DNA of 64,000 bases from a virus: the IMG/VR virus record IMGVR_UViG_3300049793_000366, positions 186,865 to 250,864 of that record; one strand, 5' to 3'. The translations under genes were made by a program, and so were the position numbers. How positions within the stretch are numbered: the stretch's first letter is position 1; each line of letters starts with the position of its first letter. Below are positions 2,543 to 50,148 of this stretch, piece by piece. Under the pieces are notes generated by a model, which was not told the DNA's origin, made no database searches, and worked only from the letters and a program-made list of their open reading frames with translations.

Positions 2543-3202
2543 TTACTTTCTCTTAATAAGAATTTCGTCAATTATACCGTATGCTTTAGCTTCTTTAGCT
2601 GTCATCCAGTAATCTCTGTCTGAATCTATGCTTACTTTGTCGAATGGTTGACCAGTGTTGTCGGATAATATTTCAGAAAGCTCTCTTTTTAGAGAATGTA
2701 TGTGTTTTGATTCAATCTCGATATCAGATGCTTGTGCGTAGCCTAAATAGCCAAGTGGTTGGTGTATCATAGTTCTGGCTCTTCTAAGTGATTTTCTCTT
2801 ACCTTTTGTACCGCAAGATAGAATCACAGCAGCCATAGAAGCCGCGATACCAGTATTTATAGTAACTATATCATTTTTAATAAATTCCATTGTATCAACA
2901 ATACCCAAACCATCGTAAATTGAGCCACCGCCTGAGTTTATGTATATTTTGATATCCTTTTCGCTGTCTAATTGCTCTAAATATAGAAGCTGTGCCTTAA
3001 TGACATCAGACATTTCATCATAAATTTCGCCATTTAAGAAAATTATTCTGTCTTGTAGGAGTTTGGTAAATACATCTAAAACCATACCATCAAACTTTTG
3101 ATCCACTATTGATGTTGTTAGATTGTTTTTATATCTGTGTTGTTTAGCTGATGATATACCGGATGATAGCATCCATTTCTTATAGTCTCGTTGGTCGTTC
3201 AT
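2543..3202 (-). CDS. clpP: ClpP-like serine protease
   Basis: A 219-residue protein with the ClpP order of motifs: INSGGGSIYDGLGI, the nucleophile region TGIAASMAAVILSCG (catalytic Ser), MIHQPLGY (catalytic His) and SDRDYWMTAKEAKAYGIID (catalytic Asp). ClpP forms the barrel peptidase that degrades unfolded proteins handed over by Clp ATPases. No Clp ATPase is seen in this window, so it may use the host unfoldase. ClpP-fold enzymes also serve some phages as prohead proteases. It stands between divergent genes without an obvious promoter motif. Confidence 0.9.
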   Translation of the reverse strand: MNDQRDYKKWMLSSGISSAKQHRYKNNLTTSIVDQKFDGMVLDVFTKLLQDRIIFLNGEIYDEMSDVIKAQLLYLEQLDSEKDIKIYINSGGGSIYDGLGIVDTMEFIKNDIVTINTGIAASMAAVILSCGTKGKRKSLRRARTMIHQPLGYLGYAQASDIEIESKHIHSLKRELSEILSDNTGQPFDKVSIDSDRDYWMTAKEAKAYGIIDEILIKRK

Positions 3203-5980: not shown

Positions 5981-7042
5981 TTAATTTGATAAGTCCATCT
6001 TAACTGCTTTGGAACATTTATAGTCGATGAGTTTTATATCATCATATTTAATATCGAATAAGTTTTTATTCGATATTTCTATTTTGGGTAAATCGAATGT
6101 TTCGTTTCTTAATTGTTCCTTAATTGGTTGTATATGGTTTAAGTAGATATGACAATCACCACCAGAGAAAATTAAATCTTCTGGTAACATATTTACTTCA
6201 TTCGCTAATAATTGTAGTAATAGACCATATGATGCAATATTGAATGGTAATCCCAAACCCACATCAACGCTTCTTTGTGTCCACTTTAGACTAATTGTTC
6301 TTCTTGGTATTCTTAAGGTATCTAACTTTTCATGTGTCATATCATCGCCATAGTGAATGCTTTTACCAAGTGATGATGTCCACGTTTTAACTCTTTCTTC
6401 TAATGTAAGTAGTCTTGTATAACATTGAAATCCATAATGACAAGGTGGTAATGTCATATTAGGTAAATCGGCTACGTTCCAAGCTGTAACCATCAACCTT
6501 CTGCTATCTGGATTGTTTTTTAAATCATTTATAAGCATTTTTATTTGGTCGAATGGTTCTTCAAACCAACCTTCTATATCACAAACTACTGGGTTTTCCC
6601 AACGTCTCCACTGTGCGCCATAAACAGGTCCTAATTCTCCGCAAATTCTACAAAATTTTTCGTCTTCTAATATGAGTTCAGCGAATCTTTCAACAGTAAT
6701 CTCGCCATATTTCTGATACATCATTTGTAGTTCACAAATACTACCCTTGTAGTCTTTGTAGCTCATGTATTTCTTGTGAGCATCACCATTCCATATATTT
6801 ACATTGTTTTCAACTAAGTATTTAATATTTGTACTACCAGCTAAAAACCATAATAATTCATGTGCAACACCTTTAAAATATACCCTTTTGCTTGTAAGTA
6901 GAGGAAAGCCATCGCGCATATTGAATCTCATTGTGTAGTCAAATATTGACTTAGTGCCTGTTCCTGTTCTGTCTGACTTCTCTATTCCGTTATGTAGGAT
7001 ATGTTCAACTAATTCTAAATATTGTTTGTCTACTTGATTCAT
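5981..7042 (-). CDS. thyA: Thymidylate synthase
   Basis: Makes dTMP from dUMP using methylenetetrahydrofolate. Motifs: KSDRTGTGT near the N-terminus, PDSRRLMVTAWN, the active site LPPCHYGFQCY (catalytic Cys), VDVGLGLPFNIASYG and the substrate loop GGDCHIYLNH. At 353 residues it is longer than the usual about 265; the extra length lies in two central inserts (about residues 95-150 and 215-245), a known pattern in some family members. It works with FolD (24004) and DHFR (37897) in this window to complete a thymidylate/folate cycle. No clear promoter motif is seen. Confidence 0.96.
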   Translation of the reverse strand: MNQVDKQYLELVEHILHNGIEKSDRTGTGTKSIFDYTMRFNMRDGFPLLTSKRVYFKGVAHELLWFLAGSTNIKYLVENNVNIWNGDAHKKYMSYKDYKGSICELQMMYQKYGEITVERFAELILEDEKFCRICGELGPVYGAQWRRWENPVVCDIEGWFEEPFDQIKMLINDLKNNPDSRRLMVTAWNVADLPNMTLPPCHYGFQCYTRLLTLEERVKTWTSSLGKSIHYGDDMTHEKLDTLRIPRRTISLKWTQRSVDVGLGLPFNIASYGLLLQLLANEVNMLPEDLIFSGGDCHIYLNHIQPIKEQLRNETFDLPKIEISNKNLFDIKYDDIKLIDYKCSKAVKMDLSN

Positions 7043-15483: not shown

Positions 15484-17349
15484 TTACTTCACTTCTTCTG
15501 AATCTATATCAGTTACTTGCTGACCATCATCAGTTGGTGGTGTTTGTTCTTGATACATTCGTGTAGAAACATCATTCCAAACAGTGTTTAGACTTGCTAA
15601 ATGAATATCAATTGCATCGATGTCTTTATTAGAATGAGCAGTTTTCAATTCAGCTAACGCAGTTTCTAATTTACTCTTATCATCTGCTGATAGTTTTTCA
15701 CCAAATTCTTTAATTTGTTTTTCTGTTTGAAATATCATACCATCTGCTTGATTTACTTTATCAATCTTTTCTTTTTCTAAACGGTCTGATTCAGCATTCG
15801 CTTCTGCTTCTTGTTTCATTCTCTCAATCTCTTCTTTTGAGAGTTGTGAGTTTCCTTCAATTCTTATTTTGTTTTCTTTGTTTGTAGCTTTGTCTTTTGC
15901 TGATACAGCGATGATACCATTTGCATCAATGTCAAATGTAACTTCTACTTGTGGTACACCTCTTGGTGATGGTGGAATACCATCTAAGTGAAATCTACCA
16001 AGTGTTCTGTTATCTTTTGCTAACGGTCTCTCACCTTGTATAACATGAATCTCAACAGATGGTTGATTATCCGAAGCTGTTGAGAACGTTTCTGATTTCT
16101 TAGTTGGGATTGTTGTGTTAGCTTCAATTAATTTAGTCATAACACCACCCATTGTTTCAATGCCTAATGATAATGGTGTAACGTCTAATAGAAGAACGTC
16201 TGTAATGTCACCACTTAGTACTGAACCTTGAATAGCGGCACCAATGGCAACAACTTCATCTGGATTCACACCTTTGTTTGGTTTCTTGTTGAAGAATTTT
16301 TCAACAGCTTCTTGTATAGCAGGTATTCTTGTAGAACCACCTACTAATATAATTTCATCAATATCGGATGGTTTTAAACCAGCATTTTTAAGTGCAGATT
16401 TACATGGTTCGATTGTTCTCTTTATTAGAGAGTCGGATAGTTGTTCAAATTTAGAACGAGTTAATGATAGAACAAGATGTTTTGGTGTACCATCTACTGA
16501 TGTGATGTATGGTAAATTAATATCAGTTTGTGATGTTGATGATAATTCGACCTTTGCTTTTTCAGCCGCCTCTTTCAATCTTTGTAATGCCATTGAATCC
16601 TGTTTCAAGTCGAAACCATTTTCTTTTTTGAATTCATCTGCCATCCAATCAATGATAGCATTATCGAAATCGTCACCACCTAAGTGAGTATCACCATCGG
16701 TTGATTTTACTTCAAATACACCATCACCTAATTCTAAAACAGAAACGTCATGTGTACCACCACCGCAGTCGAACACAACTATTTTCATTTCCTTATCTGT
16801 CCTATTTAATCCGAATGCTAAAGCCGCGGCTGTTGGTTCGTTGATAATTCTTTCTACTTTTAATCCTGCAATTTCTCCGGCTTCGATTGTAGCTTTTCTT
16901 TCAGCATCACCGAAGTATGCTGGTACTGTTATAACAGCTCTTTTTATTTCTTGTCCTAAATAATCTTCTGCTGTCTTCTTCATTTTTTGAAGAATCATTG
17001 CTGATATTTCTTGTGATGTATAATTTCTATCACCTATTTTTACAACTGGTACTGTTCCTGTTTTTTCTACAACGTAAGGAACACGCTTTATTTCACTCTT
17101 AATAGAATCAAAACTTCTACCAATGAATCTTTTGATTGAGTATATTGTTTGTTCTGGATTAACAACTGCTTGACGTTTAGCTGTGTCGCCAATTTTTCTT
17201 TCGCCGTCTTTAGAGAATCCAACAATAGAAGGTGTTGTTCTTTTACCTTCTGAATTTGAGATAACAACTGGTTCACCGCCTTCAACAACGGCAACACATG
17301 AATTCGTTGTACCTAAGTCAATACCAATAATGTAGTCTTTTTTGCTCAT
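15484..17349 (-). CDS. dnaK: DnaK (Hsp70) chaperone
   Basis: A full-length 621-residue Hsp70: N-terminal [14 protein letters not shown] phosphate loop, [16 protein letters not shown], second phosphate loop [16 protein letters not shown], adenosine motif [14 protein letters not shown], linker [14 protein letters not shown], beta substrate domain and helical lid with a short Gln/Asp tail. It binds unfolded proteins in an ATP cycle with DnaJ and GrpE. The second loop differs from the usual DLGGGTFDVS by Leu to Cys and Phe to His, while the catalytic Thr and Asp remain. No dnaJ or grpE is seen nearby, so host partners are likely. Rare in phages. Confidence 0.97.
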
Positions 17350-21206: not shown

Positions 21207-22352
21207 ATGCCGACATTAGGATTAAGTCAAATTGTGAAGAATGAGGCTCACGTTATAGAAAGGATGTTGAAAACATTAGCTCCAATCTTGGATTATGTAG
21301 CTATCGTTGACACAGGTTCGACTGACGGGACACAAGATATCATACGTAACTTTTGCAAAGAGAATAAAATAGAGTGTGAAGTTATCGATAGACCATTTGA
21401 TAATTTTGAAAATTCAAGAAACGCTGCTATGCAACTTCTTGGACAAAAAACGGATTATGGTATCTGGCTTGATGCTGATGAGCAAATTGTTATAGATCCT
21501 AAATTCAATAAAAAATCTTTAGACAAGGATTTGTATATGATTACAACATATATTGGTCCTATGAAATATACTCGTAATGAGTTATGGAGTACTAAGAAGC
21601 CATTTCGTTGGTATGGTCCATGTCACGAATTTATCGTGTGTGACGACCAAAACATTACCTCTGGTATCATTGACGGTCTTACTGTACAAGTTCAGATGGA
21701 TGGTGGTTCTTGGAAAGGTGATGTATCAGAAAAGTATCGTAAACATTCTCAGTTATTTGAAGACTTTATTCAGACTGATAAGAACAGCCGTTGGTTATTC
21801 TATACAGCTCAATCTTTTCATGATTCTGCTTGTGTACCAAATAACAAAACTGAAAACGATGAGAGATTAAGAAGGTCTATGTATTACTATAAAGAACGAG
21901 TTAATCGTGCTGATGGTTATGAAGAAGAAAGATACTACTCACAATTTCGAGTTGGTACAATTATGATGACTCTTGAAGAGCCTTGGGCTAAGACACAACA
22001 GGAATTGTTGAAAGCTTATACAATGGATCCATTGAGAGCAGAAGCTATTAAAGTAATCATCGATTACTATCACCGCGTTGGTGAATGGCACATGGCTTAT
22101 ATGTATTCTAAATTTGCAAGAACTACATTTCACGGAAACAATCCTTATCCAAAAAAGATTTTATTCGTTGATGAACAGTTATACAACTGGAAGTTTTTAG
22201 AATCTCATGCCGCATCTTGTTTCTACACTGGTAGAAAAGAAGAAGCTAAATTAACATACCAAGAATTGGTAAAAGTTATGAGTCATAATCCTGGTTTCTT
22301 CGGAGAAGGGGATAAACAAAAGATTACAGCTAACGCTCAGTTTTTCATGTAA
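21207..22352 (+). CDS. GT2 glycosyltransferase with TPR-like C-terminus
   Basis: A 381-residue protein. The N-terminal GT-A domain has GLSQIVKNEAHVIERML, AIVDTGSTDGTQDII, FENSRNAAMQL and the metal motif GIWLDADEQIVID. The middle has a WYGPCHEFI acceptor segment. The C-terminal half (about residues 230-370) is made of helix pairs like TPR repeats. This layout is common in family-2 transferases that add sugars to proteins or surface glycans. It overlaps the next gene by one base (TAATG). Confidence 0.85.
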   Translation: MPTLGLSQIVKNEAHVIERMLKTLAPILDYVAIVDTGSTDGTQDIIRNFCKENKIECEVIDRPFDNFENSRNAAMQLLGQKTDYGIWLDADEQIVIDPKFNKKSLDKDLYMITTYIGPMKYTRNELWSTKKPFRWYGPCHEFIVCDDQNITSGIIDGLTVQVQMDGGSWKGDVSEKYRKHSQLFEDFIQTDKNSRWLFYTAQSFHDSACVPNNKTENDERLRRSMYYYKERVNRADGYEEERYYSQFRVGTIMMTLEEPWAKTQQELLKAYTMDPLRAEAIKVIIDYYHRVGEWHMAYMYSKFARTTFHGNNPYPKKILFVDEQLYNWKFLESHAASCFYTGRKEEAKLTYQELVKVMSHNPGFFGEGDKQKITANAQFFM

Positions 22353-24003: not shown

Positions 24004-24891
24004 TTATTCGTCTATTGAGTTTTTTACTTTCCAGGCTTCGTATGTATTTAATATCAATCCTGATATAGTCATTGGACCAATACCACCTGGGACTGGTGTT
24101 ATCCATGAGCATTTTTTAGAAACATTTTCGAAATCAACATCACCAACAATTTTATCATCTACTTTGTTTATACCAACATCGATTATAATTGCACCATCTT
24201 TAATCATATCTGTTGTTAGAAATTTTGGTTTCCCAACTGCTACGATAACAATATCTGCTCTTTTGGTTTCTTCGATTAAAAGCTCTCTGGGTGTGTTTAT
24301 GTCACATGATGTAACAGTTGAACGTCCAATGTTAAAGTCGTTACCTAACATTATAGAAACAGGTTTACCGACTATATTAGAACGACCAATAACAACAACG
24401 TGTCTACCTTTTGTTTCAATTTGATAGTATTGAAGTAATTTTAAGATACCATATGCTGTAGCTGGTCTCATAGAACGTTGACCCATAGCCATCTTACCGA
24501 AGTTAAGAGGGTGAAATCCATCGATGTCTTTATTTGGATCTATTTCATTGATAATAGAATCAGCCGTTATGTGAATAGGTAAGGGTAATTGTACAATGAA
24601 TCCATCAATAGAATGATTACTATTCAGTTTACGAATTTCATTTAGTAACTCAATCTTAGTAATAGACTCATCGAATCTAATAAGCTGTGATTTTATATTT
24701 GCTTTCTCACACGCTTTTAATTTAGCCTTAACATATGATTCACTCGCTGGATTATTACCAATTAACACAACAGCCATGCTAGGTGTTGTAGAAGTTAATC
24801 TATCACCTAATTGATTATTGTGAAATTCTATTTTAGCTTTCACCTCACTTATTAAATGATGCGAAACCGATTTACCATCTAGTAGATTCAT
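24004..24891 (-). CDS. folD: FolD: methylenetetrahydrofolate dehydrogenase/cyclohydrolase
   Basis: A 295-residue bifunctional enzyme interconverting methylene-, methenyl- and formyl-tetrahydrofolate with NADP. Motifs: SYVKAKLKACE (catalytic Lys), IVQLPLP, DIDGFHP, the nucleotide-binding VVVIGRSNIVGKP and PVPGGIGPMTIS. Together with ThyA and DHFR it supplies one-carbon units for dTMP synthesis. Its start overlaps the previous stop as ATGA. FolD is seldom reported in phages. Confidence 0.96.
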   Translation of the reverse strand: MNLLDGKSVSHHLISEVKAKIEFHNNQLGDRLTSTTPSMAVVLIGNNPASESYVKAKLKACEKANIKSQLIRFDESITKIELLNEIRKLNSNHSIDGFIVQLPLPIHITADSIINEIDPNKDIDGFHPLNFGKMAMGQRSMRPATAYGILKLLQYYQIETKGRHVVVIGRSNIVGKPVSIMLGNDFNIGRSTVTSCDINTPRELLIEETKRADIVIVAVGKPKFLTTDMIKDGAIIIDVGINKVDDKIVGDVDFENVSKKCSWITPVPGGIGPMTISGLILNTYEAWKVKNSIDE

Positions 24892-28286: not shown

Positions 28287-30176
28287 ATGAATGAATTAAA
28301 AGAGGGAGATGTTATTGTAGGACAAATTGACTTCAATACCAACGGTAACGCTTATCTCAGCGTGGATGGACACGATGATGTGTACATCTATAAAAAGAAC
28401 ACTTTAAATGCTCTACACTTAGATACGGTTGAGGTTCAACTACTTATGAGAGAGGGTAAACTAGAAGGTGTTGTTAAAGAAGTAGTAGGTAGATTTAAAA
28501 CTGAATGGGTTGGAACCGTTCAACGAAATAAGAATCTGGTATTTGTTTTACCAGATAGCAATAAAACCCCCGTAGACTTCTTCATTCCAGAAGATGCATC
28601 AATGGGTGCTAAAGATAAACAAAAGGTCGTGGTGAGACTTATTAAGTGGAAAAAAGGCACTAAATCACCATTTGCTAAGATTATTAAAATTTTAGGTGAA
28701 GTAGGTGATAATAACACCGAAATGAATGCGATTATGTATGAGTATGGCTTGCCTGTTGAATTTCCGAAAGAAGTTGAATTAGAAGCTGAATTGATATCAT
28801 TTGAAATTCCACCTACTGAGATTGCTAAACGTAGAGACATGAGAAGTGTTACTACATTTACAATAGATCCGGTAGATGCGAGAGATTTTGATGATGCATT
28901 ATCAGTTGAGGTTAAAGAAGACCATGTTGAAATTGGTGTTCACATCGCTGATGTAACTCACTATGTTAAACCAGGTACTAAATTAGAAGAAGAAGCAATT
29001 AAAAGAGCTACTTCTGTTTACTTGGTTGATAGATGTGTTCCGATGTTACCTGAGAGATTATCGAATGGTGTTTGTTCACTAAGACCACATGAAGAAAAAT
29101 TGTGTTACTCTGTTATCTTTAAAATGGATTCAGAAGGTAATGTGTTAGATACATGGTATGGTCGTACTATAATCTATTCTGATAGAAGATTTAGTTATGA
29201 AGAAGCACAAGAAATAATTGAAGGCAAGGCTGGTGATTTTTCTGATGAATTAACATTGTTCAATACTCTTGCTAAGAAAATCAGAGGACGTAGAATTAAA
29301 AGTGGTTCATTGGAAATGGATTCAGCAGAAGTGCGATTTAGATTAGATGAACGCGGTAAACCACTTGATGTGTATTTTAAAATACAAAAGGATGCTAATA
29401 AATTAATTGAAGAGTTTATGTTGTTAGCTAATCAAGCAGTTGCTAAGATATTATCTGATAACTCATATAATTCAGTTTATAGAGTTCACGATAAACCAAG
29501 CCAAGAAAAATTAGAGGCACTTACTGGTGTTGCTACTAACTTTGGTTATAAAGTTAATTTATATCAACCAGAGAAAATAAAAGAATCATTGAATAGTTTA
29601 TTGGCCGAAATTAAAGGTAAACCAGAAGAGAATATGATTTCTACTTTGGTTACAAGGTCAATGGCTAAAGCAACATATACAATTAAAAATATTGGGCATT
29701 ATGGATTAGGCTTTACTCACTATTCACATTTCACATCACCTATTAGACGATATCCTGATATGATGTCTCATAGATTACTTGATGATTATTTAACAAAGAA
29801 ACCTAAGGGAAATCCTACTGTTGTTGAACAACAAGCTAAGTGGTCTTCTGAGAGAGAATTAATTGCGGCTAAAGCACAACGAGATTCTATTAAATATAAA
29901 CAAGCTGAATATTTACAAGATAAAATTGGTAAAGTTTTCAAAGGTGTTGTATCTGGTGTTACTGATTGGGGAATGTATGTTGAGATAATTGAAAACAAAT
30001 GTGAGGGTATGATTCGCTTTAAAGATATTGGTGATGATATATTCATACCAGATGTAAACGCATATCAAGTTGTAGGTCATAAGACTGGTCAAATCATAAG
30101 ATTGGGTGATGAGATAATGGTCAGTGTAGCTGGTGTTAATCTTGAAAAGAAGTCGATAGATTTAAAAGTATTCTAA
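28287..30176 (+). CDS. rnr: RNase R-type 3'-5' exoribonuclease
   Basis: A 629-residue RNB-family enzyme that digests RNA from the 3' end. It has an N-terminal cold-shock-like OB region (about residues 1-170), an RNB domain with FTIDPVDARDFDDALSVE (the catalytic Asp cluster), VGVHIADV-like IGVHIADVTHYV, HYGLGFTHYSHFTSPIRRYPD, and a C-terminal S1 domain (VFKGVVSGVTDWGMYVEI). It is shorter than bacterial RNase R, lacking the N-terminal helix-turn-helix and the basic tail. Rare in phages; it could free nucleotides from host RNA or trim phage RNA. Confidence 0.95.
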   Translation: MNELKEGDVIVGQIDFNTNGNAYLSVDGHDDVYIYKKNTLNALHLDTVEVQLLMREGKLEGVVKEVVGRFKTEWVGTVQRNKNLVFVLPDSNKTPVDFFIPEDASMGAKDKQKVVVRLIKWKKGTKSPFAKIIKILGEVGDNNTEMNAIMYEYGLPVEFPKEVELEAELISFEIPPTEIAKRRDMRSVTTFTIDPVDARDFDDALSVEVKEDHVEIGVHIADVTHYVKPGTKLEEEAIKRATSVYLVDRCVPMLPERLSNGVCSLRPHEEKLCYSVIFKMDSEGNVLDTWYGRTIIYSDRRFSYEEAQEIIEGKAGDFSDELTLFNTLAKKIRGRRIKSGSLEMDSAEVRFRLDERGKPLDVYFKIQKDANKLIEEFMLLANQAVAKILSDNSYNSVYRVHDKPSQEKLEALTGVATNFGYKVNLYQPEKIKESLNSLLAEIKGKPEENMISTLVTRSMAKATYTIKNIGHYGLGFTHYSHFTSPIRRYPDMMSHRLLDDYLTKKPKGNPTVVEQQAKWSSERELIAAKAQRDSIKYKQAEYLQDKIGKVFKGVVSGVTDWGMYVEIIENKCEGMIRFKDIGDDIFIPDVNAYQVVGHKTGQIIRLGDEIMVSVAGVNLEKKSIDLKVF

Positions 30177-30177
30177 T

Positions 30178-30212
30178 AAAAAAAGTCTCAAATTAATTTG
30201 AGACTTTTTTGT
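30178..30212. terminator. Bidirectional terminator
   Basis: A near-perfect palindrome AAAAGTCTCAAATT / AATTTGAGACTTTT with A and T runs on both sides, between rnr and the convergent exported-protein gene. Confidence 0.9.
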
Positions 30213-31178
30213 TTATTGTATAATAATTTTCTTGACTTCTATTGTTCTATCTGTGTATTCTATATGTTGAATATACATACCTGGTTTTGTGTCAGTAGTT
30301 TCAACACCAGTTAAGTCATATGTAGTTATCAATTTAACAACTTTTTGTGATTGATTGTCAATAGATATAATACCAGAATATTCGTATTGACCATTGAAGT
30401 CAGTTTGTTTAAGTCTATAATAATTTATAGCATCTTTAATGAACATATAATCTTTGAATGTATAACTCAATAAAGTAGTTGATGTACCAGCACCATCTAT
30501 GTTTGCTACTTTCTCCCAGTTAATACCATCACTACTTCTTTCTATTGTATAGAAGTCATTATTCATTTCGGTTGCTGTTTTCCAAGATAGTAAATTATGC
30601 GAATTATAATTGAAGCCATCGAATGATAATAACTCAATTGGTAGTGGGTTAGAACAATTTATAACGAAGTTATCAAAGTCATAGAAATATACTGCTGTTC
30701 CTGGAGGTCCCGGAGGTCCTGTGACATAGCTGTTTATTGTAGCATTTGTTATTAAACAAAATCTAAATTGTATAATGTTATTAGGTAAACCAGAGTAAGT
30801 ATGCGTAACGCTATTGTATAATCCGGTGTATGTATCTAATGTAGTCCAGGTCGAACCGTTTGTAGTGTATTGAAAGTATAAAAAATCAAATCCATTCTGT
30901 ATGATACCATTGTGTAGAAAGGTTACGGAAAGACCACTGATGCAGTTTGTCATATTTAAAACAGGACTAACCATAGTAACAGTTGCGCTATTTGGGTATG
31001 GTGTTGTGCCTATATTTGTTGTAAGCCAAGAGCTACCACCATATACTTGAATTCCCGCACCATTTGTAACAGACCAGCCGCCTAATCCTGTAAAATTATA
31101 TGTTGTTGGATAAGATATTTGGCTAAATCCAACTAAGCTAATTAAGGATATGAATAAAGTTATTATAAATCTTTTCAT
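30213..31178 (-). CDS. Secreted protein with type IX secretion sorting domain
   Basis: A 321-residue protein with signal peptide MKRFIITLFISLISLVGFS, a beta-rich domain (about 20-170) with a short collagen-like TGPPGPPGT, a fibronectin-like region LPIELLSFDGFNYNSHNLLS...TIERSSDGINWEKV, and a C-terminus (about 275-321) with LITTYDLTGVETTD and KPGMYIQHIEY then KKIIIQ. That order is typical of Bacteroidetes type IX (Por) secretion cargo. It should cross the outer membrane through the host system. A phage could use it to alter the cell surface or block other phages; that is inference. Confidence 0.8.
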   Translation of the reverse strand: MKRFIITLFISLISLVGFSQISYPTTYNFTGLGGWSVTNGAGIQVYGGSSWLTTNIGTTPYPNSATVTMVSPVLNMTNCISGLSVTFLHNGIIQNGFDFLYFQYTTNGSTWTTLDTYTGLYNSVTHTYSGLPNNIIQFRFCLITNATINSYVTGPPGPPGTAVYFYDFDNFVINCSNPLPIELLSFDGFNYNSHNLLSWKTATEMNNDFYTIERSSDGINWEKVANIDGAGTSTTLLSYTFKDYMFIKDAINYYRLKQTDFNGQYEYSGIISIDNQSQKVVKLITTYDLTGVETTDTKPGMYIQHIEYTDRTIEVKKIIIQ

Positions 31179-31182
31179 ATCC

Positions 31183-31192
31183 TATATATTAG
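31183..31192 (-). promoter_or_regulatory. Possible late-type motif CTAATATATA
   Basis: A nine-of-ten match on the minus strand, 4 bases before the ATG at 31178, overlapping the stop of the upstream gene. It may give the exported-protein gene its own message. Confidence 0.35.
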
Positions 31193-31443
31193 GATAGTAG
31201 CTTGTCTATATTCTCTTTTCTTTTTTCCATTTTGATTTGTTCTGCTGTCTTTTTCGGTGGTTCTGAATTTAGCGTTACATCACTCATATATTCTCGTATG
31301 AAGTCTATGTAATAGTCTCTATCATTATAGCCTTCCTCTTCATCATCTGTTCTACTGAATGGGTCATAAATCATATCTTTCCACGTATTTTTCTTCTTTC
31401 CGTTGAACTTATCAAATAAGTTGTTAAAATGCTTATCGTTCAT
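31189..31443 (-). CDS. Small charged protein (84 aa)
   Basis: A very hydrophilic protein, acidic in the centre (TDDEEEGYNDRDYYIDFIRE) and basic at the end. It lies 10 bases before the exported-protein gene and follows a host-type -7 element. Not recognised. Confidence 0.55.
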   Translation of the reverse strand: MNDKHFNNLFDKFNGKKKNTWKDMIYDPFSRTDDEEEGYNDRDYYIDFIREYMSDVTLNSEPPKKTAEQIKMEKRKENIDKLLS

Positions 31444-31469: not shown

Positions 31470-31477
31470 CAAATATA
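31470..31477 (-). promoter_or_regulatory. Host-type -7 element TATATTTG
   Basis: A TATATTTG on the minus strand, 26 bases before the ATG at 31443. ATCCA directly precedes it, close to the GTCCA box of other promoters. No good -33 TTTG is seen at 20 bases. Confidence 0.45.
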
Positions 31478-37504: not shown

Positions 37505-37900
37505 ATGTTATATATCATATTAGTTATAATTTTTGTCCGTTCGGCATATGTTCTTTATCAGAATTATCGATTTGATAAATTCACTAAGAACGTCAGCGAA
37601 TTTTTAATTGGTCAGAATTTACATCTTATGCCAAATTTATGGAATTCCAAATCTATGAGAATGGATGAGCTTCCATTGCCAAAATTATCAATAGATAATA
37701 TAAATCTGTGTGATATCATAGTTAAACCAATAGTATCGGAAAAAACCAATACAGTAGAAGCGTATATTTTTACTTGGTCTAAGAAACTTACCAACTTTGA
37801 TATACTTATGGGCTATAACATGACTCATAAGAAGATAGATAGTATAAAACTCGATAAGGGAGAAATTCGAGATAAAAACATTGATAGATTACTGCAATGA
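37505..37900 (+). CDS. Membrane-anchored unknown protein (131 aa)
   Basis: An N-terminal membrane segment (MLYIILVIIFVRSAYVLY), then a soluble part (LPLPKLSIDNINLCDIIVKP; EAYIFTWSKKLTNFDILMGY). It overlaps the DHFR gene by 4 bases. Not recognised. Confidence 0.6.
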   Translation: MLYIILVIIFVRSAYVLYQNYRFDKFTKNVSEFLIGQNLHLMPNLWNSKSMRMDELPLPKLSIDNINLCDIIVKPIVSEKTNTVEAYIFTWSKKLTNFDILMGYNMTHKKIDSIKLDKGEIRDKNIDRLLQ

Positions 37901-38361
37901 TAACATTAATAGCCGCTTGTTCAAAAAATAGAGTTATAGGGAAAGATAACAAGCTCATATGGCACATCCCAGACGATTTAAAGAGGTTTAAGAAGCTTAC
38001 AGGTGGTAATCCTATATTGATGGGTAGAAAGACTTTTGAGTCTATTGGAAGAGCTTTACCGAACAGAGTTAATATCATATTAACGAGAGACAAAACATTT
38101 ACGGCACCTGGTTGTCTAATCTATAATAACTTAGAAGAAGTCATAGCATTATATCGCTCAAATCTTTGGGTTATAGGTGGTTCTGAAATATACAGTCAAT
38201 TACTATCATATGCTGATTGCGTTGAATTAACCTTATTGGATAAAGAGTTTGAGGGTGATTCTTATTTTCCTGAATTACCAAGTGTTTGGAAAATAGATTC
38301 TAAAGAAGACTATTCACACGAAGGTCTTGATTACTCATACATCACGTATAGAAAGTCTTAA
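37897..38361 (+). CDS. folA: Dihydrofolate reductase
   Basis: A 154-residue enzyme reducing dihydrofolate to tetrahydrofolate with NADPH. Motifs: IAACSKNRVIGKDNKLIWHI, PDDLKRFKKLT (catalytic Asp), NPILMGRKTFESIG, LPNRVNIILTR and LWVIGGSEIYSQLL. Normal family length. It regenerates the cofactor oxidised by ThyA. It is coupled to the membrane-protein gene before it and shares its last bases (TTAA) with the convergent gene. Confidence 0.97.
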   Translation: MITLIAACSKNRVIGKDNKLIWHIPDDLKRFKKLTGGNPILMGRKTFESIGRALPNRVNIILTRDKTFTAPGCLIYNNLEEVIALYRSNLWVIGGSEIYSQLLSYADCVELTLLDKEFEGDSYFPELPSVWKIDSKEDYSHEGLDYSYITYRKS

Positions 38362-48768: not shown

Positions 48769-50148
48769 ATGAGAAAATATTCTGAGAAATTCTTAAACGA
48801 CCACAACATATTGAAACACGCGATTATCGGGTTCGAATTTGAATTCTTCCTACATAACTTATCTTATTACAAAACATTAGAATTGTTGAATCAATATTTA
48901 TCTCCTGTTAAAGTTTGGGGTTTTAAACAATATCACTCTGACTTTAAACCGGATGCTGAAAACTTTAAGATAGAACCTGACCTTTCTGGTGGTTCATCGA
49001 TGGTTGAGTTAATTACGGGTCCTATGGATTATTATACAGCTAAGTATTACTTAACTAAGATTCTTAGATTTATTAATGAGTATGGCTTCACAACAGATAA
49101 GGCATCTATTCACTTTAACGTATCTTTCAAAAAGGACTCAGATAAGTCATTGAATGATTTAAACGTTTTAAAGCTTATTTTAAATACTGATGAAGATGAG
49201 ATTTATAAGTTATATCCTACGAGAAAGGATAATATCTATGCTAAGTCAGTTAAGAAGATTATCCCATATAAAGAATATGACTTCTTCAACGTATCGATTG
49301 AGACTATTAAAAACTCAATGAGATTACCAAATGATAAATATTATGGTATCAATTTCTTACACACTAACGATGATGCTGGTAGCGCACGTTTAGAATATAG
49401 ATATATTGGTGGTAAAGACTATGATAAAGATCCTGGTCAATTAATGTATTTCCTTGATAAGTTTATTATCAATGTTTGGGGTGCAATTGATGTACCATTC
49501 ACTGATGGCGATGTAGAGAAGTTAGAAGAATATTTAAAAGATAACATTTCGTTATTTAAGAACTTTTCTAAATATGATAATTTCTTAGTTGAATTTCCAA
49601 GTATTGAATTACAGATTGACCAATCTGGCCAATATGATTTAGTTAATGCTTACTATCCTAAAATTTATAATAAATTATTTTCTCTTATTGACTCTGTTGA
49701 TAATTTAAAAGACTGTATTATCAACTATACTACAACTGAACAAAAAATGGAATTAGTAGATGCTACAATAAAAGCACACTTTAATATAAAAGGATTTGAT
49801 TTCATTGGTTGTAAAGTAACTGATGGTATTTATGACAATTGTAGCTTTATTAATGGTGTTGTTACAAACACACAGTTAACGAAGTGTGATGTACATGATT
49901 CGGAAGTTAGTGGTTCTAAATTATTTAAATGCAAGGTTGAGAATTCTGAATTATCGAATTGTTATTTCGTAGAAGGTTATTTAAATGGTCATATGGAGGG
50001 TGGAGTTTTCCGTTCTGGTAAATTGGGGCCTTGGGCTACTCTTTCATCAACAACTAAGATTGTTAGTGAAACGGATAACTTCTTTGCTACTAAGTATGAC
50101 TTAGACCAGAAGTCTGATAAAGAAGGAAAAATTGATGGTTATAAATAA
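48769..50148 (+). CDS. Amidoligase-like protein with pentapeptide-type C-terminus
   Basis: A 459-residue protein. The first half follows the amidoligase pattern of the glutamine synthetase-like fold: HAIIGFEFEFFL, FKIEPDLSGGSSMVELITGP and ASIHFNVSF, which would join an amine to a carboxyl group using ATP. From about residue 355 a repeat-like stretch (FIGCKVTDGIYDNCSFINGV; CKVENSELSNCYFVEGYLNG) looks like a right-handed pentapeptide-type helix. The target is unknown; candidates are peptides of the cell wall or virion. Confidence 0.6.
   Translation: MRKYSEKFLNDHNILKHAIIGFEFEFFLHNLSYYKTLELLNQYLSPVKVWGFKQYHSDFKPDAENFKIEPDLSGGSSMVELITGPMDYYTAKYYLTKILRFINEYGFTTDKASIHFNVSFKKDSDKSLNDLNVLKLILNTDEDEIYKLYPTRKDNIYAKSVKKIIPYKEYDFFNVSIETIKNSMRLPNDKYYGINFLHTNDDAGSARLEYRYIGGKDYDKDPGQLMYFLDKFIINVWGAIDVPFTDGDVEKLEEYLKDNISLFKNFSKYDNFLVEFPSIELQIDQSGQYDLVNAYYPKIYNKLFSLIDSVDNLKDCIINYTTTEQKMELVDATIKAHFNIKGFDFIGCKVTDGIYDNCSFINGVVTNTQLTKCDVHDSEVSGSKLFKCKVENSELSNCYFVEGYLNGHMEGGVFRSGKLGPWATLSSTTKIVSETDNFFATKYDLDQKSDKEGKIDGYK

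Follow-up and report, generated by a model that had tools for sequence, protein, structure and literature searches.

Can a huge phage send a protein of its own to the surface of its host through the host's type IX secretion system (T9SS)? The question is raised by a 321-aa open reading frame (ORF) in virus record IMGVR_UViG_3300049793_000366, of which we analysed one stretch of 64,000 nucleotides (bases 186,865-250,864 in the 507,910-bp record), called the window below. A sequence-only reading had described the product as phage-encoded T9SS cargo with a signal peptide, beta-rich domains and a C-terminal sorting domain of the kind used in Bacteroidetes type IX secretion. The reading that we favour, and hold to be reasonably probable, is that of a phage protein exported by Sec, recognised by the T9SS via a short CTD and displayed on the host surface.

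The gene and its surroundings

The coordinates and strand previously given for the ORF match exactly what we find in the ORF list. The gene and its neighbours are as follows.

30213-31178, minus strand: ORF for a putative surface protein of 321 aa (from the ORF list; stop codon 30213-30215, coding 30216..31178)
28287-30176, plus strand: RNase R-like gene (rnr), convergent with the 321-aa ORF, tail to tail
30179..30210, between rnr and the 321-aa ORF: hairpin with A-run and T-run flanks (folding versus shuffles)
31189..31443, minus strand: 84-aa ORF, function unassigned, directly upstream of the 321-aa ORF with a 10-base gap
31470..31477, minus strand: TATATTTG, candidate -7 element, upstream of the 84-aa ORF at a distance of 26 bases

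The hairpin folds at -16 kcal/mol (z -6.92; 0/200 shuffles equally low) and reads as a terminator for rnr and the 321-aa gene alike. On the other side, the 84-aa and 321-aa ORFs probably form one transcription unit. TATATTTG matches the motif TAnnTTTG, which we take to be the Bacteroidota-type -7 element. The motif occurs 100 times across the whole window versus 93.3 expected, i.e. not above chance, and is enriched only within 60 bases upstream of window ORFs (14 versus 3.9 expected); as a promoter element of the 84-aa ORF, TATATTTG is a weak lead. Shine-Dalgarno (SD)-like motifs were found upstream of only 3/84 window ORFs, which we counted in favour of surface display in a Bacteroidota host.

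Secreted proteins of bacterial type are unusual in phages, and the sequence-only reading had itself raised the possibility that host DNA was fused to phage DNA through an assembly error. G+C is uniform around the 321-aa ORF, its codon usage lies near the median (rank 47/71 versus other window ORFs), and its relatives are found on phage records with hallmark genes. Since the hairpin is common to this gene and the neighbouring rnr, the hairpin, the median codon usage and the uniform G+C together make an assembly insertion of host DNA very unlikely, to the point that host contamination, rejected on the hairpin and the codon usage, is nearly refuted. The record itself encodes a gp23-type capsid protein (PF07068, 92.4 bits) and a large terminase (PF03237, 74.1 bits), which together place it among T4-like huge phages. 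The phage origin claimed for the gene is thus upheld by these hallmark genes, by its ordinary codon usage, by the relatives in other phages that the homolog search proposed beforehand has now found, and also by a second cargo gene that is syntenic in three huge phages (see below).

Some other window ORFs, named by reading their translations, make a rather cell-like set for a single phage window: ClpP (2543-3202), thymidylate synthase (5981-7042), DnaK (15484-17349), FolD (24004-24891), RNase R (28287-30176) and dihydrofolate reductase (37897-38361). By eye, window 48769-50148 resembles L006:7768-9132, which ties the phage to LR756504, and window 21207-22352 resembles L007:7667-8839, which ties it to LR756502.

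Domain architecture of the predicted protein

The predicted protein is divided into the following segments.

31122..31178, minus strand: signal peptide, residues 1-19 (model helix 2-19, rule-based test; presumed cleavage site)
30648..31115, minus strand: MAM-like jelly roll, about residues 22-177 (model and fold search)
30348..30647, minus strand: FN3 domain, about residues 178-277 (model and fold search)
30216..30347, minus strand: short CTD-like tail, residues 278-321 (profiles, alignment, model)

The signal peptide proposed earlier is borne out by a rule-based test, by a helix in the structural model and by Gln20, the predicted first mature residue, which is invariant in 29/29 aligned family members. 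A Gln after the signal peptide fits the Bacteroidetes Q-rule as described in the accessible text of PMC5837995 and PMC10653852. When the rule-based test demanded a signal peptide followed by Gln, the 321-aa ORF was the only one to pass among the 84 window ORFs of at least 60 aa, and 65 of the 74 viral family ORFs with a closed 5' end passed as well (44/49 of the non-redundant ones).

An AlphaFold2 model of the 321-aa protein, built on a 29-row family alignment, reached a mean pLDDT of 79.2 and a pTM of 0.52, at which the relative placement of domains is unreliable. It starts with the signal-peptide helix, continues with a jelly roll and an FN3 domain, and closes with three strands; model and fold search together confirm the beta-rich domains. 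The jelly roll matches MAM-like domains of meprin, reelin and Elapor1 in the fold search (Z 10-12, rmsd 2.8-3.8), although this assignment is a fold match without a sequence-family match, in a domain of mixed pLDDT. A collagen-like GPPGPPG (residues 154-160, window 30699-30719) lies in a jelly-roll loop that is modelled with low confidence. The best rows for the FN3 domain have Z 10-12 and rmsd 1.9-2.5 over 85-92 residues, and Pfam FN3 gave no match in the 321-aa protein. The tail had no separate match among the fold-search rows shown (only residues 22-277 are well tested by the search), and the model is therefore the sole source for its fold. The 321-aa protein gave nothing convincing in PHROGs (best E 0.18), and a PDB sequence search with the whole family gave no match. 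Judged from the fold alone, the payload suggests binding and not catalysis.

Phage particles often contain FN3 and jelly-roll domains, and the fold search also returned the FN3 domain of the T1 tail tip (9l9p_S, Z 10.9) along with phage tail proteins, as one might see for a virion or tail decoration protein. A signal peptide, however, is unexpected in a virion protein, and among viral proteins the top fold matches are unnamed or FN3-like, with one named for a secretion sorting domain, so that we regard a place in the virion as highly improbable.

The C-terminal tail

The tail is about 44-50 aa long, depending on the chosen start. Its strands in the model span residues 281-288, 300-308 and 313-320 (pLDDT of the blocks 78-85), and it holds the segments YDLTGVETT (residues 287-295), GMYIQHIEY (300-308) and KKIII (316-320), on which the sequence-only reading had based its sorting domain. 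Within these, Y287...G291 is motif B-like, G300-M-Y-I303 motif D-like, and K316 K317 motif E-like.

The curated models do not bear out a standard type A sorting domain. PF18962 (Pfam) had no match in the 321-aa protein up to E=10, and NCBIfam TIGR04183 scored the whole protein at 15.6 bits and the isolated tail at 18-18.6 bits, all below the cut-off of 23; in place of the seven-strand beta-sandwich CTD, the structural model has three strands from residue 281 on. With PF18962 and TIGR04183 both failing, the protein was dropped as a type A member; short CTD is the better description of its tail. The broader claim of T9SS cargo remains well supported by inference, but the type A evidence cited for it fails.

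A short-tail profile built without the window protein found the tail with 26.6 bits (E 2e-7) as its sole match among 765 window frames, versus a maximum of 8.9 bits for shuffled versions of the last 60 residues (1,933 scored). Compared with cellular long CTDs, the viral short-tail profile scored 22.1 (E 4.6e-5, probability 68.6%), and 100 column shuffles of the same comparison reached 13.5 at most. This similarity to full CTDs is partial, with 27 columns aligned, and the aligned portion is the CTD half with the LGQ-type and GxY-type motifs. Cellular short tails versus cellular long tails gave a weaker probability of 24.3%. These profile comparisons show the tail to be statistically related to true CTDs, and as far as sequence can tell the short-tail family resembles half a normal type A CTD. 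Against PDB the short-tail profile had weak matches only (7jvi_A, E 0.023; the solved CTD 8glj_D, E 0.56). TIGR04183 detected 3/55 viral short tails at E 1 or better, versus 63/63 cellular long tails. Three relatives that share a payload group, namely L010, L011 and L014, lack the last strand with motif E, which counts against the tail as a required signal.

The wider family in phages and cells

A single-sequence search of IMG/VR with the 321-aa protein found no relative, and when three family members were compared by tblastn with 50,697 phage records, only four uncultured genomes of 462-642 kb were found. A five-row alignment of the window protein and proteins from four huge phages (L005-L008) was used for both the viral and the cellular collections, and yielded 217 viral loci, of which the best 80 were kept. 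Both the viral and the cellular set were ranked by similarity to the window protein, itself short-tailed, and cut to the best 80; they were gathered through FN3-domain patterns.

Tail length was taken as the number of residues after the last YYRLxQ-like motif. Among the best 80 of the 217 viral loci, 79 proteins have at most 75 residues after this motif and no YPNP-like motif; the 80th (L009) lacks the YYRLxQ-like motif by the pattern used, yet ends short too. Among the best 80 of the cellular matches listed, the same FN3 domain precedes a long tail (76-130 residues after the motif) in 64, whereas 11 end short like the viral ones, one ends short but has YPNP, three are open-ended and one is without the motif. 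After redundancy removal the 80 viral ORFs gave 53, of which 52 have the tail motif (L009 dropped). For module clusters, 54 proteins were reduced to 52 (L059 and L072 dropped), with 51 payloads of at least 40 aa. L111, a near-duplicate of L110, was omitted before alignment and scanning, which left 63 of the 64 cellular long tails, and L122 was omitted from the cellular short set.

The 51 payload regions fell into nine groups, no two of which were linked by BLAST at E 1e-3, whereas all FN3+tail modules (52/52) formed a single cluster, and the module therefore acts as a common C-terminal part. In cells, the short-tail profile hit 2/198 Bacteroidota genomes at E 1e-6, one being the seed genome; 1-6 short-tail copies were found in 6/7 chosen Bacteroidota genomes, five of which had been picked for having a short tail. 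One Bacteroidota genome has five large ORFs in a row (574-1425 aa), all short-tailed (G033:C58:33253-47482), and the module may stem from such a cellular cluster. The relative in LR745206 (L005:4760-6438) is split over two frames, with a PKD-containing front and an FN3+tail back, due to either sequencing error or decay.

A rival reading would have the protein exported by Sec only, for a periplasmic role or for release at lysis, with the tail a structural extension of FN3 instead of a sorting signal. This would explain why the tail fails the sorting models and why it always stands behind the same FN3 domain in our set, although the FN3-based patterns used to gather the set mean that distribution does not separate the two. 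Such an extension fits poorly with the long tails behind FN3 in most of the cellular loci listed, with the match of every scanned cellular long tail to the type A model, with the alignment of the short tail to the CTD part bearing the LGQ-type and GxY-type motifs, and with the three strands that the model places beyond FN3. We rate Sec-only export as unlikely.

Standard T9SS domains on the same phages

We surveyed 34 records, namely our own, 29/31 of the IMG/VR contigs >50 kb among the 80 (L021 and L024, which nearly duplicate L022, were omitted) and four LR genomes. Terminase or gp23 was above cut-off in 24/34 (terminase 18, gp23 21), and neither was found in the other 10, including the contig of L009, the closest relative. 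A standard T9SS sorting domain was above cut-off in 15/34 records, ours included (PF18962 in 11, PF13585 in 9). Among 14 control genomes, PF18962 was above cut-off in none, with a sub-cut-off match in one, and PF13585 had no match. One of the type B domains (CHU_C, PF13585) lies at L014:10639-10887 on the minus strand; LR745206 has four PF13585 matches and LR756502 has three.

Outside the window, our record has a second cargo gene (G000:C1:298493-299062, i.e. L192:2494-3063), whose 190-aa product has a signal peptide, a full type A domain (48.8 bits versus a cut-off of 27) and a payload without a recognised family. Counterparts with 30-34% identity are found in LR745206 (L190) and LR756502 (L191) at the same position, between a DnaJ-like gene and a large opposite-strand gene (in LR756502 a 68-aa ORF intervenes). 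This syntenic gene is the clearest evidence that T9SS cargo has an established place in such genomes.

Relatives of the 321-aa gene in the five loci examined have unrelated gene contexts, none of them showing synteny with rnr, and the tails of L010, L011 and L014 are shortened. Like the split copy in LR745206, this is compatible with captured host cargo that does nothing for the phage and is merely carried along in a very large genome, where it drifts and at times loses its tail. Phage-typical codon usage, signal peptides kept in most members and the conserved position of the second cargo gene in the three diverged huge phages point instead to retention, and we find a mere passenger distinctly unlikely.

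Proposed role and significance

For display through the T9SS, a phage of a presumed Bacteroidota host would make the 321-aa protein during infection, and the signal peptide would direct it to Sec, leaving a mature N-terminal Gln. The host T9SS would then recognise the three-strand short CTD and take the protein across the outer membrane, and sortase cleavage and anchoring would follow, with the protein either staying on the cell surface or being shed from it. There, the MAM-like jelly roll and FN3 could serve as an adhesive or masking layer and, as a guess, alter binding to the infected cell, e.g. by keeping other phages off. Surface export of the protein is likely. Receptor masking, phage exclusion and altered adhesion are all candidate functions at the level of guesses; superinfection exclusion was dropped as an assigned function because nothing in the analysis pointed to it, and the results do not distinguish between adhesion, gliding and exclusion.

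A bolder and more tentative proposal, which may well be wrong, is that FN3 and the short CTD form a surface-display cassette, rare in cells and with swapped payloads, and that huge phages add type A and type B cargo to it and rebuild the surface of the infected cell via the host T9SS.

If short tails work, annotation misses most such phage proteins, as the rate of detection by the NCBI model (3/55 tails at E 1) indicates, and phages that act on the host surface are undercounted. The related viruses carry many short-tailed proteins and may therefore redecorate the exterior of infected cells. The phage tails are also a natural set of short CTDs, usable to probe the minimal T9SS signal. For other bacteria, phage genes that alter the host surface are a classic subject.

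Comparison with known systems

Phage-encoded T9SS cargo is already in print. In the open literature we found T9SS cargo of Bacteroidota phages only in PMC7468147 and PMC6949934, both accessible in part, and we found no paper joining phage T9SS cargo with short CTDs in a search of open literature largely without subscription papers and preprints. What looks new here is that a short CTD missed by the standard models is shared by a widespread phage family.

According to the accessible text of PMC7468147 (2020), cryophage genes carry type A sorting domains, and hijack of the host T9SS with superinfection exclusion was proposed. Those domains are on an endoglucanase, a GH39 protein and a PA14 protein, whereas here a sub-cut-off short tail is found on a MAM-like/FN3 protein of a huge phage. 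In a crAss-like phage, the parts of PMC6949934 available describe a T9SS sorting domain near and on BACON ORFs; like ours, these phage proteins combine a sorting domain with domains of carbohydrate-binding type, and the difference is BACON repeats there versus MAM/FN3 here. The uncultured Caudovirales phage protein A0A6J5M2J1, named 'Secretion system C-terminal sorting domain', has a similar fold (rank 10 in the fold search, E 1.8e-6).

With the standard type A domain (PF18962/TIGR04183), the tail has in common its C-terminal position, the second-half motifs and a distant profile similarity, while the first half (YPNP and the following strands) is absent and the curated cut-offs are not reached.

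A further likeness is to the short CTDs of Prevotella intermedia. In the accessible text of PMC11969387, 48 short CTDs of 43-55 aa are predicted in this species, the only one reported with both long and short CTDs; cleavage sites were determined for five, and cleavage and glycan attachment were shown by mass spectrometry. They are predicted there as a single three-stranded sheet, and their AlphaFold models bind PorV like long CTDs. The paper also cites work on Hbp35, of which only the last 22 residues were strictly indispensable to the secretion and attachment of GFP. Its rules ask for Gly and Tyr in motif B, GxY then Ile in motif D and a basic residue in motif E, and the window tail conforms in length (<60 aa) and in motifs (Y287, G291, G300-M-Y-I303, K316/K317, with small gaps), and in the model also as a single three-stranded sheet. 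No PT/GI cleavage-site consensus was seen before the tail in a reading by eye. The P. intermedia short CTDs are cellular, and the window tail, which is likened here to their written description, may be a counterpart encoded by a phage.
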